From a virus: DNA of 31,881 nt. The stretch spans positions 1-31,881 of the IMG/VR virus record IMGVR_UViG_3300008450_000249, one strand, 5' to 3'. Shown one piece after another: positions 4,355-31,536 of this stretch. The notes under the pieces are model-generated. The model did no database searches and had not been told where the DNA came from. It saw nothing but the letters and a program-made list of their open reading frames with translations. The translations under genes and the position numbers were made by a program. Each line of letters opens with the position of its first letter. Positions within the stretch are counted from its first letter, which is position 1.

Positions 4355-5075
4355 TCTTCTCGATTACATGGGGTCTGACCTGTCGGTCGTTAATGCTGCA
4401 CGGGTCAGCTTCGATAAGCAGAGTGATTGGGTGTACGAAGGTTGGCAGGACGGAAGAGCGAAAGGTCTACACGGCAACGACAAACGGCTCATCAACTACC
4501 TCGCCAAGCACAACCACTGGACACCCTTTGGTCACTGCTTTGCAAGCTTTCGTATCAAGGCTCCCATATTCGTCGCACGTCAGCTTGGTAAACACCAAGT
4601 CGGCTTAGTGTGGAACGAGGTAAGTCGGCGGTATGTCGATAGTGAACCTGAGTTCTACGTTCCTGAGTCATGGCGCAAACGCGCTGAGAACGTGAAGCAG
4701 GGCAGTAGCAGTGAAGAGTTTACCAACCACATAACGTGGAACGCTGTTCATGTTGATACTTTTTGGGACGAACCCAACAACCCAGATGGTATGGGATATG
4801 GACAGACCCATATCTTTGACGCTTGTCTGGATGCGTACAACGCGCTCCTAGAAGCAGGAGTTTGCCCCGAACAAGCTCGCATGGTTCTCCCGCAATCCAT
4901 GTACACCGAATGGGTTTGGTCTGGTTCGCTCGCAGCGTTTGCTCGCGTGTGTAAGCTCCGTCTTGATCCGCATACACAATACGAAACACGACAGATCGCT
5001 GCCTTCATCGACAACGATTTGAAATCCCTATTCCCCGTATCTTGGAAGGCTCTAATGAATGAAGCTGCTGATTGA
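4344..5075 (+). CDS. thyX: Flavin-dependent thymidylate synthase ThyX
   Basis: Makes dTMP from dUMP with methylenetetrahydrofolate and FADH2, supplying dTTP for phage replication; 243 residues, normal for the family. Visible are the N-terminal NAARVSF, the NHWTPFGHC segment, the flavin/substrate loop KHQ(83-85)...WNEVSRRY (90-97) and the C-terminal QARMVLPQSMYTEWVWSG and QYETRQIA motifs. The classic RHRx7S motif is altered: RHR is KHQ and the gap to the Ser is one residue longer, a form I associate with phage ThyX. The second Ser (S94) and following Arg-Arg-Tyr are kept. It overlaps the upstream gene by 11 bases and the exonuclease downstream by 17. Confidence 0.95.
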   Translation: MKVDLLDYMGSDLSVVNAARVSFDKQSDWVYEGWQDGRAKGLHGNDKRLINYLAKHNHWTPFGHCFASFRIKAPIFVARQLGKHQVGLVWNEVSRRYVDSEPEFYVPESWRKRAENVKQGSSSEEFTNHITWNAVHVDTFWDEPNNPDGMGYGQTHIFDACLDAYNALLEAGVCPEQARMVLPQSMYTEWVWSGSLAAFARVCKLRLDPHTQYETRQIAAFIDNDLKSLFPVSWKALMNEAAD

Positions 5076-5796
5076 TGCAGACATCCTGCTCTACAGAGCC
5101 GCAAGCTCGGTGGAGAATGAAGTAGAGTTTGAAGAAGACATCTGGGTTCTGTGGACTGATGAGAACGAGGCTATAGAGGCGTTCACCAACAGCGTTGCTG
5201 CTTTGCTTGAACAAGCCGATACATATGGCTACCTCCTCTGTTTCTCTGACAGCAAGAACTTCAGAAAAGACCTCCTCCCCTCTTACAAGGGCAACCGCAC
5301 TTCTCGCAAACCGATGGGTTTCAAATCCATCCGTGAGCGGGTGTTGGAGGAGTACAAACACAAGGTCATCATCAAGCCCACGCTTGAGGCTGACGACTGT
5401 ATCGGCATTCTGGCTACCCAGTCTCCTGACGAGTACGCCATCTGGTCTGCTGATAAAGACCTGAAGCAAATCCCCGGCAAGCACCTCACTGAAGAAGGTT
5501 TCGTAGCCGTCTCCCAACAGGAGGCTGACCGCTTCTTCTACCAACAGGTGCTCACTGGTGACACGGCTGACAACTACAAAGGCTGTCCCGGCATTGGTCC
5601 TGTGAAGGCTGATAAGATACTGAGCACGATGGCTGCAATCGAAGCCCCGTGGACTCATGTGGTCGATTCTTACCTTAACGCAGGACTTACGGAAGCGGAT
5701 GCTCTGGTGCAGGCACGTGTTGCCCGCATCCTCCGTGCGACCGACTGGGACTCAGAAAAACAAGAGGTGAAACTTTGGACGCCTACTACTGCGTGA
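5059..5796 (+). CDS. 5'-3' exonuclease, T7 gp6-like (FEN family)
   Basis: Flap/5'-3' exonuclease for primer removal, host DNA breakdown and recombination; 245 residues. The metal-binding acidic residues are in place: LLIDADILLYRA (D6, D8), LEADDCIG (109-116), SADKDLKQ (130-137). The helix-3-turn-helix segment GDTADNYKGCPGIGPVKA spans 167-184 and is almost identical to the T7 gp6 motif. ATG at 5059 is inside the thyX end, and the start is fixed by the MKLLIDAD motif. Order thyX-exonuclease-DUF3310 keeps it inside the replication operon. The 3' end overlaps the next gene by 22 bases. Confidence 0.95.
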   Translation: MKLLIDADILLYRAASSVENEVEFEEDIWVLWTDENEAIEAFTNSVAALLEQADTYGYLLCFSDSKNFRKDLLPSYKGNRTSRKPMGFKSIRERVLEEYKHKVIIKPTLEADDCIGILATQSPDEYAIWSADKDLKQIPGKHLTEEGFVAVSQQEADRFFYQQVLTGDTADNYKGCPGIGPVKADKILSTMAAIEAPWTHVVDSYLNAGLTEADALVQARVARILRATDWDSEKQEVKLWTPTTA

Positions 5797-11535: not shown

Positions 11536-11757
11536 ATGGCTCGCGACTACGCAAAAGAGTACCGGGATTACCAAGGTACTCCAGAGCAGATCAAGAGACG
11601 TGCAGGGCGCAACAAAGCTCGCCGTCTTATGATCCAGAAGGGCAAGGTGAAGAAAGGCGATGGCAACGATGTTGACCACCGCAACAATAACACCCTTGAT
11701 AACCGCCCTTCAAATCTGCGGATCATGCCTAAGAGCAAGAACCGCTCAATTAAGTGA
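11536..11757 (+). CDS. Small basic HNH-like protein
   Basis: A very basic 73-residue protein between scaffold and capsid. The C-terminal half, DVDHRNNNTLDNRPSNLRIMPKSKNRS, has the DH..dgn...N...NLr.....N arrangement of the second half of an HNH nuclease fold; the N-terminal half is Arg/Lys-rich (KRRAGRNKARR). A true first-strand HH pair and Cys zinc ligands are not visible, so it may be a minimal or decayed nuclease or just a DNA-binding protein. Similar small DH...NNLR proteins are widespread beside structural genes in phages. GGAG lies five bases before the ATG. Confidence 0.7.
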   Translation: MARDYAKEYRDYQGTPEQIKRRAGRNKARRLMIQKGKVKKGDGNDVDHRNNNTLDNRPSNLRIMPKSKNRSIK

Positions 11758-28914: not shown

Positions 28915-29138
28915 AGAAACGAGCATCTGAGGACATCCTCGGCTCGCTTCACGATGCAGTGGCAAATGACCTCCTCAGGCGAGTTATGTCTGGGGAGGCC
29001 AACCCTGCTGAACTGAATGCAGCCATCAAGTTCCTCCAGAACAACGGAATCGAGGCTGTAGCTACTGAAGAGAACCCTCTGGGTAAGCTCGTGGCTGCAC
29101 TGCCAACATTTGATGACGAAGAAGATCACATACATTGA
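28911..29138 (+). CDS. Small terminase subunit, T7 gp18-like
   Basis: A 75-residue helical, acidic-ended protein. SLHDAVANDLLRRVMSGEANPAELNAAIKFLQNNGIEA matches the small terminase subunits of T7-like phages, where the helix with PAELNAAIKFLxxN is conserved. It recognises DNA and guides the large subunit during packaging. ATG 28911 overlaps the previous gene by four bases, and the stop overlaps the next TTG by four (TTGA). Confidence 0.88.
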   Translation: MKKRASEDILGSLHDAVANDLLRRVMSGEANPAELNAAIKFLQNNGIEAVATEENPLGKLVAALPTFDDEEDHIH

Positions 29139-30835
29139 CAAAAGACCCTCTCAAGGAGGACTTTAGGAAGTTTCTATACGTCGTTTGGAAGCACATTGGT
29201 CTACCCGACCCTACCCCTATCCAGTATGACATTGCGTACTTCCTTCAACACGGTCCTACAAAGATCGCCATTGAGGCGTTTCGAGGCGTAGGCAAGTCGT
29301 TCATCACGTCTGCCTATGTCCTCTGGCGCTTGTATTGCAATCCGCAACTCAAGTTCCTTGTCGTGTCAGCCTCTAAGGCTCGCGCTGACGCTTTCTCGAC
29401 CTTTACGATGCGTCTCATCCAAGAGATGGACATCCTTGCCTTCCTGAGACCCAGAGATGAGCAGCGACAGTCACGTATCGAGTTCGACGTAGGCCCTGCT
29501 ACTGCCGACCAAAGCCCCTCAGTGAAGTCTGTGGGTATCACTGGTCAGCTCACTGGTAGCCGTGCCGATGAAATTATCGCTGATGACGTGGAGGTGTTGA
29601 ACAATGCCGCCACTGCTGACATGCGTGAGAAGCTGATCGAGCGTACTAAGGAGTTCTCGGCCATCCTGAAGCCTCTACCTGAGGCTAGGATCATCTACCT
29701 AGGCACTCCGCAGACTGAAGACTCGATCTATAACAAGCTCCCAGAGACGTTTGTCACGCGCATCTGGCCTGCTCTCGTTCCTAATAAGGAAGAAGCTGAT
29801 AAATATGGTGACAATCTAGCCCCCTACATCAGGAAGATGCTGGGGACCAAGCCTGAAGGGACCACTACGGACCCTCAACGCTTCTCTGACATCGATCTAG
29901 CCTCCAGACAGGCAGAATATGGGCGAGCAGGGTTCTCCTTGCAGTTCATGTTGAACACCTCGCTCTCAGATGAGGACCGTTACCCGCTCAAGATACGCGA
30001 TCTGATCATCATGGACGTGCCAAAAGACAAGGCTCCCATGAAGATCAACTGGCTACCTGACTACAAGCGGGAGCTGAAGGAGCTGCCTAATCTGGCAATG
30101 GCTGGAGACAGGTTCTATGCCCCTGCTAGCACTGATGACACGTTCGCAGAGTATACAGGGACCGTCATGTCCATTGACCCTAGTGGTCGAGGAAAGGACG
30201 AAACTGGCTACGCTGTGGTCAAGATGCTCAACGGCTATCTCTATGTGACCCGTGCTGGCGGTCTACAAGGCGGCTATGACACCCCTACCCTGCGGCAGCT
30301 CGCTCTGATCGCTAAGGAGGAGGGTGTGAACCAGATCATCATCGAAGCCAACTTTGGCGATGGCATGTATCAGGCTCTGTTCGAACCTGTGGTCAATAAG
30401 ATACACCCCTGCTCCATCGAGGAGGTCAAGCACTCTACCCAGAAGGAGAGGCGTATGATCGACACTCTGGAGCCTGTGATCAGTAGACACAAGATGATCA
30501 TTGATCGCAAGGTGATCGAGGATGATTACAGGACAGCACAGGCTTACGATGCCGACAATAAGTTCACCAAGACACTGGTCTACCAGATGACACGTGTGAA
30601 CTATGACCGTGGCGCCCTCAAACATGATGACCGACTGGACGCACTGGCAATAGCTGTGGGCTTCTGGGCCGAGAACATGTCTCAAGATGACGACAGGGGT
30701 ATCAAGGCTGAGAAGTCTGCTGCTCTGGACAAGGAGCTAGAACGGTTCATGGAACACGCTACAGGCAATAATCGTTACGCTAACGTAGGGGCTTCAAGGC
30801 TCCTGACTAGGATTACATCTAATGAACGATACTAA
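29135..30835 (+). CDS. Large terminase subunit, T7 gp19-like
   Basis: Packaging motor ATPase and nuclease, 566 residues (T7: 586). Walker A is EAFRGVGKSFIT (50-55 core), Walker B/DE is IIADDVE (147-153), and SPSVKSVGITGQLTGSRAD is near identical to T7. Nuclease aspartates are in MSIDPSGRGKDETGYAV, IIEANFGDGMY and HDDRLDAL. The start is TTG at 29135, inside the small subunit stop and shared with T7-like overlap style. The 3' end overlaps the next gene by 14 bases. Confidence 0.97.
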   Translation: MTKDPLKEDFRKFLYVVWKHIGLPDPTPIQYDIAYFLQHGPTKIAIEAFRGVGKSFITSAYVLWRLYCNPQLKFLVVSASKARADAFSTFTMRLIQEMDILAFLRPRDEQRQSRIEFDVGPATADQSPSVKSVGITGQLTGSRADEIIADDVEVLNNAATADMREKLIERTKEFSAILKPLPEARIIYLGTPQTEDSIYNKLPETFVTRIWPALVPNKEEADKYGDNLAPYIRKMLGTKPEGTTTDPQRFSDIDLASRQAEYGRAGFSLQFMLNTSLSDEDRYPLKIRDLIIMDVPKDKAPMKINWLPDYKRELKELPNLAMAGDRFYAPASTDDTFAEYTGTVMSIDPSGRGKDETGYAVVKMLNGYLYVTRAGGLQGGYDTPTLRQLALIAKEEGVNQIIIEANFGDGMYQALFEPVVNKIHPCSIEEVKHSTQKERRMIDTLEPVISRHKMIIDRKVIEDDYRTAQAYDADNKFTKTLVYQMTRVNYDRGALKHDDRLDALAIAVGFWAENMSQDDDRGIKAEKSAALDKELERFMEHATGNNRYANVGASRLLTRITSNERY

Positions 30836-31232
30836 CGCATACATTTGGGGCTACCACGCCTCCATTGACATGGCTGGCTGTAATCAAAAGGCCATCACTG
30901 ATCGACAGACGGTCCTCAACTTCTGCAAGGAGCTGGTGGAGGCTATCGATATGAAGGCTTATGGGGAGCCGCAGCTTGAGCACTTTGCTGAACACGATGC
31001 TGGCAAGGCTGGCTTTACGCTGTCCCAGTTAATCGAGACCTCCAACATCTGTGCACACTTTGTGGACGCTACTGGGGAGGTCTATCTGGACATCTTCTCG
31101 TGTAAGCCGTTCGACCCTGAGGTCGCTGCTGACGTGGCTGGCCGCTACTTCAGCCCCCAGTACGGGGAGATATTCTTCAGGGAACGAGGTGTTAGCCTGT
31201 TGGACACTGTGGACACCGATGTGGCCCATTAG
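30822..31232 (+). CDS. speD: S-adenosylmethionine decarboxylase (SpeD) homologue
   Basis: A 136-residue protein matching the pyruvoyl-dependent AdoMet decarboxylase proenzymes, which make decarboxylated SAM for spermidine synthesis. Conserved are GYHASIDMAGC at the N-terminus, FTLSQLIETSNICAHF, YLDIFSCKPFDP and the RYFSPQYGEIFFRERG end. Ser74, His79 and Cys94 have the +5 and +20 spacing of T. maritima Ser63, His68 and Cys83. The residue before the cleavage Ser is Thr (usually Glu) and the one after is Asn (usually His), so processing or substrate may differ. ATG 30822 overlaps the terminase end. No other polyamine gene is in the window. Homologues with changed substrates (ornithine or arginine) exist in this family, so the reaction is not certain. 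Confidence 0.85.
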   Translation: MNDTNAYIWGYHASIDMAGCNQKAITDRQTVLNFCKELVEAIDMKAYGEPQLEHFAEHDAGKAGFTLSQLIETSNICAHFVDATGEVYLDIFSCKPFDPEVAADVAGRYFSPQYGEIFFRERGVSLLDTVDTDVAH

Positions 31233-31240
31233 ATAGGGTC

Positions 31241-31260
31241 TAGGAAGCTCTAGGAAGCTC
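31241..31260 (+). repeat. Perfect tandem repeat TAGGAAGCTC
   Basis: Two adjacent identical ten-base copies (31241-31250 and 31251-31260) begin eight bases after the SpeD stop. A shortened inverted copy, GCTTCCTA, lies at 31325-31332. TAGGGT (31234-31239) and ACCCTA (31292-31297) give another inverted pair around them. Confidence 0.85.
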
Positions 31261-31341
31261 CGTGGCGGCATTTGTTAGCATGGGTGGTACTACCCTAGCC
31301 AAAACACATGATGGCCGTCTACGGGCTTCCTATTAGGCCCT

Positions 31342-31361
31342 AGATTTTGCTACAAAAATCT
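31342..31361 (+). other. Small hairpin in the right-end region
   Basis: AGATTTT pairs with AAAATCT around a six-base GCTACA loop. It has no following T-tract on the + strand. Because SpeD is more than 100 bases upstream, it may close its transcript or be part of end processing. Confidence 0.4.
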
Positions 31362-31536
31362 GAGACCCCAACGCTAAAGACCTTGTTGGCCGATCCCCCA
31401 TATGGGTGCTCTTGTGCACCAATGTAACACGATGTGAGACAAATGGCCGATTTCTTGTCACGTGCCACGGCACAATGGGCCTAAGATATTGATATTGCTA
31501 GGGAATAATCGGATTGCATATGCGATTTGCAGACAA

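Follow-up and report, generated by a model that had tools for sequence, protein, structure and literature searches.

The gene behind the terminase large subunit gene (terL) of this viral DNA raises the question of what its product, a homologue of S-adenosylmethionine (SAM) decarboxylase (SpeD), decarboxylates, and at what stage of infection. We analysed the window, that is, the whole stretch of 31,881 nucleotides of the record IMGVR_UViG_3300008450_000249. The first-pass annotation had described a SpeD homologue overlapping the terminase by 14 bases, and the reading frame, the family and the overlap were all confirmed (Table 1). The protein, here called the speDC product, matched Pfam AdoMet_dc with 66.5 bits, where the cut-off is 25, and an E value of 3.1e-18, and PHROG_3125 with an E value of 5.6e-23. 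Considering both matches, together with the Ser/His/Cys spacing in 164 relatives that come mostly from IMG/VR, were chosen by this spacing itself and include some contigs counted twice, we conclude that the open reading frame is not due to chance. An AGGA lies 9 nt ahead of the ATG and is a plausible ribosome-binding site. When the single protein was compared with the PDB by phmmer, only OspC was returned (E 0.31), which we rejected as a chance match; a profile did find the AdoMetDC entries.

Table 1. Positions of the speDC-like gene, its neighbours and its predicted active-site codons in the window.
Feature	Position	Strand	Remarks
terL (terminase large subunit)	29135..30835	+	PHROG_38, E 8e-117; stop TAA 30833-30835; 3' end overlaps speDC start
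AGGA, plausible Shine-Dalgarno of speDC, within terL	30809..30812	+	sequence; inferred
speDC-like gene	30822..31232	+	start ATG 30822-30824, stop TAG; 136 aa, AdoMet_dc fold, predicted pyruvoyl-dependent L-ornithine decarboxylase
Gln69 codon, SpeDC signature position	31026..31028	+	sequence, alignment
Thr73 codon	31038-31040	+	
Ser74 codon, predicted self-cleavage and pyruvoyl-forming serine	31041..31043	+	aligned to T. maritima S63
Asn75 codon	31044-31046	+	
His79 codon (T. maritima H68)	31056..31058	+	Phe80, SpeDC signature position, is the next codon
Tyr88 codon	31083-31085	+	
Cys94 codon (T. maritima C83)	31101..31103	+	sequence, alignment
Conserved 84-nt near-perfect hairpin, 3' of speDC	31250..31333	+	not part of the enzyme
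Conserved A+T-rich inverted repeat, after the hairpin	31342..31363	+	AGATTTTG-N3-CAAAAATCTGA

An AlphaFold2 model built from 66 sequences, the window protein and its relatives, showed a mean pLDDT of 92.9. Among PDB entries, Foldseek matched it best to three SpeD structures from bacteria, 1vr7, 1tlu and 2iii (E about 1e-9 to 2e-8), with T. maritima SpeD 1vr7 at the top (E 1.1e-9, TM 0.75/0.86), and the SpeD core that had been expected from structure prediction is present in the model. The proposed catalytic spacing also held against T. maritima SpeD, as Ser74, His79 and Cys94 are located at 0, +5 and +20, the spacing of S63, H68 and C83 (residues per PMC10407285). T. maritima SpeD (1TLU, 1VR7) thus shares the fold and the triad spacing with the window protein, but it carries the ESH and HTWPE motifs and shows about 17% identity. 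In the alignment, the usual Glu-Ser-His (ESH) of the self-cleavage point is replaced by Thr73-Ser74-Asn75 (TSN), as had been reported, and the HTWPE motif of true AdoMetDCs becomes HFVDA with an Asp at the Pro position. Based on the domain score, the predicted fold and the catalytic residues taken together, we assign the protein to class 1b of the AdoMetDC/SpeD superfamily, and it is probably active.

The altered neighbours of the cleavage site had been taken as a feature of this gene. They are indeed present, but they are not peculiar to the window copy and represent a hallmark of the lineage, since TSN occurs in 156 of the 164 relatives. In a large clade of environmental phages, TSN is thus the usual triplet rather than an oddity. 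Likewise, Phe directly follows the catalytic His in 160/164 relatives, Gln is found five residues ahead of Ser in 158/164 and Tyr six residues ahead of Cys in 156/164. Across 66 aligned sequences, T73, S74, H79 and C94 were invariant, and Q69, N75, F80 and Y88 were nearly so. Codon comparison with relatives gave dN/dS values of 0.06-0.24, and speDC is under purifying selection. In one relative with 83% identity (L005, positions 4937-5335), the speDC copy contains two in-frame TAG codons and terL is open. Gene decay and a sequence error are candidate readings of these codons; reassignment of the stop codon was rejected, considering that the standard code leaves terL uninterrupted.

Regarding the substrate, the ornithine-decarboxylating SpeD homologues (SpeDC) are reported to be told by four residues that they conserve in the central region, Gln, Thr, Phe and Tyr, and the Pro of HTWPE is described as completely conserved in true AdoMetDCs but not conserved in SpeDA proteins (PMC10407285). 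We mapped the signature positions from the residues named in that paper, not from its logo figure. The window protein carries Q69, T73, F80 and Y88 in the same order, a match that no other conserved set in the central region offers. At these places, true AdoMetDCs (T. maritima, Aquifex, S-H9-2 and the canonical Leptospira SpeD) show V, E, T and A with few exceptions, the pelagiphage HTVC201P protein, a validated arginine decarboxylase (ADC), shows Q, T, S and Q, and the Sinorhizobium phage phiN3 protein, a validated AdoMetDC, shows Q, D, F and Y. The earlier proposal of ornithine or arginine as a changed substrate is supported. By our mapping, Thr73 is one of the four residues reported as diagnostic of SpeDC (PMC10407285). 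In addition, the window protein scored 34.2 bits with TIGR03330, the NCBIfam equivalog of true AdoMetDCs, far under its cut-off of 75.65. From these sequence features, the best reading is that the protein belongs to the phage SpeDC group, outside the true SAM decarboxylases, and that it is likely an ornithine decarboxylase (ODC) making putrescine, not a SAM decarboxylase.

Phage enzymes of this kind have been studied biochemically. ODC activity was measured for five phage homologues, with kcat/Km values of 160-240 per M per s, and phage proteins of the SpeDC type did not rescue a delta-speD strain (PMC9992855). The phage SpeDC enzymes LBP and UCP01-UCP04, which come from environmental phages, are homologues of SpeD in class 1b; they have 117-122 aa and showed ODC activity but no AdoMetDC activity (PMC9992855). 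Compared by description only, they would share a clade with the 120-aa proteins from freshwater in our set. They were reported as myovirus and unclassified Caudovirales proteins, and linkage to a terminase is absent from the text of PMC9992855. Since UCP01 decarboxylates both ornithine and arginine (PMC9992855), substrate specificity may be mixed.

The closest annotated cellular relative found was the second SpeD homologue of Leptospira interrogans, which has all four signature residues (QLIETSCISAHF...Y) and 41% identity to a member of the clade (L045). Unlike the window protein, it has 288 aa with an extra N-terminal part that weakly matches a SET domain. Its gene is located between a canonical speD (ESH...HTWPE) and speE. 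In other organisms, clusters of two SpeD genes with speE comprise one AdoMetDC and one ODC; by analogy, the speD-speD2-speE context in Leptospira supports that a SpeD of the QTFY type makes putrescine. This gene (L187, 979-1845) is itself a candidate bacterial SpeDC with an N-terminal fusion, and it shares its operon with speD and speE. Among plasmids, a search for SpeDC matched two records from Leptospira and one from Rhizobium, and a contig scan with a narrow pattern gave only three relatives (two archaeal ADC-like sequences and one Rhodospirillales fragment), none of them a validated SpeDC. As a separate observation, the archaeon nzgw56 (L171/L176) carries a 244-aa open reading frame with two tandem SpeD domains, the second of which reads ESHFSVHY.

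The main caveat to the SpeDC reading comes from phiN3, whose SpeD was validated as an AdoMetDC by complementation (PMC9992855). It is the nearest named phage homologue of the window protein (34% identity), and it shares Gln69, Phe80, Tyr88 and the missing Pro, so that at the signature only Thr differs, being Asp in phiN3. On the other hand, its cleavage site is Asp-Ser-His, and its gene lies in a 207-kb phage with another gene neighbourhood. The phylogeny bears on this point in part. In a maximum-likelihood tree of 88 rows, which has few columns and some long branches, contains AdoMetDCs and an ADC as its validated references and is used here for its main split only, the true AdoMetDCs and two phage sequences were split from the rest with support of 100/99. 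The window protein was placed in the clade of TSN phages. Leptospira SpeD2 and phiN3 lie near it, at places that the tree does not fix exactly, and the tree does not part phiN3 from this clade. The window protein could therefore be a true SAM decarboxylase whose cleavage site has diverged, and its dcSAM would go to a spermidine synthase of the host. We consider this very improbable, because the Glu before Ser is replaced by Thr, the His after Ser by Asn and HTWPE is gone, the equivalog score is far too low, and the phages lack speE: a profile search with positive controls included found no spermidine synthase (PF01564) in the window, and the same profile found no speE in four relatives of 41-44 kb. 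The absence of a spermidine synthase from the window, as first noted, was thus confirmed, but the reliance on the host for dcSAM use that had been drawn from it does not carry over: given that Thr73 belongs to the SpeDC-diagnostic set, the question of who uses dcSAM is probably moot.

A pyruvoyl-dependent ADC of the SpeDA type, or a dual arginine/ornithine enzyme, with agmatine passing to the host, has to be weighed as well. HTVC201P is, like the phage of the window, T7-like (Autographiviridae), and its validated ADC also has Thr-Ser where cleavage occurs (PMC9992855); the use of both substrates by UCP01 points in the same direction. However, HTVC201P SpeDA has His after that Ser, HSWDE from the catalytic His onward, with Ser directly after this His, and Gln in place of Tyr88, six residues before Cys, and its gene adjoins a ribonucleotide reductase gene rather than terL. 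The window protein has the Phe and Tyr of SpeDC instead. In the tree, HTVC201P and the DPANN archaeal ADC-like sequences formed a group separate from the window protein (98/94), which was not found together with known or candidate SpeDA proteins. Accordingly, an arginine-decarboxylating enzyme appears improbable. Least probable of all is a catalytically dead SpeD fold with a structural or regulatory role, resembling the degraded SpeD domains of fusion proteins. The interrupted gene of L005 would indicate that speDC may be dispensable, and the neighbours of the cleavage site are altered, but Ser, His and Cys are kept across the clade, the low dN/dS argues for a constrained protein, and phage homologues with a changed substrate are active in vitro (PMC9992855).

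The window represents most of a T7-like podovirus, and its listed genes all lie on the + strand. They encode primase-helicase, DNA polymerase A, ThyX, exonuclease, MazG, ribonucleotide reductase, connector, scaffold and capsid, followed by tail tubes, internal virion proteins, fibre, endolysin, holin, terS, terL and speDC. A small HNH_3 endonuclease-like open reading frame (11536-11757, +) is located between the scaffold and major capsid genes and is kept in the relative G005. A single-subunit RNA polymerase is encoded by the four relatives of 41-44 kb. By TerL, the closest cultured phages are the Roseobacter phages CRP-804, CRP-118 and others (60-62% identity), and this nearness suggests an alphaproteobacterial host. 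G005 (L182-L184, 43,312 bases) has the terL-speDC order of the window. It also contains a tyrosine integrase (reverse-complement 32365-33393; PF00589, E 3e-18) near the RNA polymerase gene, and some members of the lineage may be temperate.

Among contigs with enough sequence past terL, speDC was the next gene in all 21 whose TerL was at least 79% identical, L005 with its two TAG codons being counted among them, and it was absent behind terL in all four with TerL identity of 62% or less. Behind terL, speDC is missing from the cultured roseophages CRP-804 and CRP-118. In the 21 contigs, the two genes either overlap by 8-17 bp or lie up to about 30 bp apart. Because of this 21/21 linkage and the dN/dS of 0.06-0.24, we conclude that speDC is a selected and fixed part of the lineage, not passing cargo. 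Enzymes of this type had already been reported in 2023, and the new detail is the fixed coupling of terL and speDC. From its place in the gene order, speDC would be expressed late, and the conserved terL-speDC order strengthens this expectation. No repeated phage promoters were found in the intergenic regions of the window and G005.

Downstream of speDC, the hairpin of Table 1 was also found in L002, L003, L004, L006-L011, L013-L018 and L022. The match in L022 is weaker and is located about 0.8-0.9 kb past the speDC end, and the same probably holds for L020 and L021. In these three more distant relatives, a PhoH-like gene, as read from the sequence, stands right after speDC instead of the hairpin. 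At the thresholds used, CRP-804 and CRP-118 gave no hairpin match, and Rfam gave none either. Folded singly, four relatives showed hairpins 5-9 standard deviations better than shuffles (z -5 to -9). The structure was taken from one fold of the + strand; paired cells reached 75.6%, above all slid controls (at most 50.9%), and compensatory changes were present. The covariation measures were only moderately above shuffles, and two of five were not above them. G-U pairs outnumbered A-C mismatches by 36 to 4, in a count that leans towards G-U, and the + strand folded better in every sequence. Based on this G-U bias and the strand preference, an RNA in the late transcript is favoured, and the hairpin could be an RNase III processing site, an mRNA 3' end or a concatemer-processing element. 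For the A+T-rich inverted repeat behind it, 0.01 occurrences are expected by chance in the window, and a DNA pattern scan matched the known relatives and five further contigs.

Returning to the ornithine decarboxylase reading, we propose that the product is a class 1b proenzyme with the SpeD fold that would cleave itself between Thr73 and Ser74. Ser74 would thereby be converted into a pyruvoyl group acting as a built-in cofactor, and the pyruvoyl enzyme would decarboxylate L-ornithine to putrescine. Translated from its overlapping start at the terL end of the late operon, speDC would provide putrescine during virion assembly. Putrescine, or spermidine made by the host, could then serve translation or neutralise the packaged DNA. 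That this pyruvoyl ODC is a fixed late gene whose putrescine is the counter-ion at packaging, and not an early supply for translation or replication, is a tentative idea that we regard as rather unlikely in this specific form.

In summary, our analysis would extend the phage pyruvoyl ODCs to a lineage of T7-like podoviruses; judged by terminase, its closest relatives in culture are roseobacter phages. Wherever a related contig allows the check, speDC is joined to the packaging gene. For many environmental phage genes, the name 'S-adenosylmethionine decarboxylase' given by automatic annotation is probably wrong. Should the enzyme be made late, this lineage would allow a simple genetic test of the idea that phages produce polyamines of their own to package DNA.
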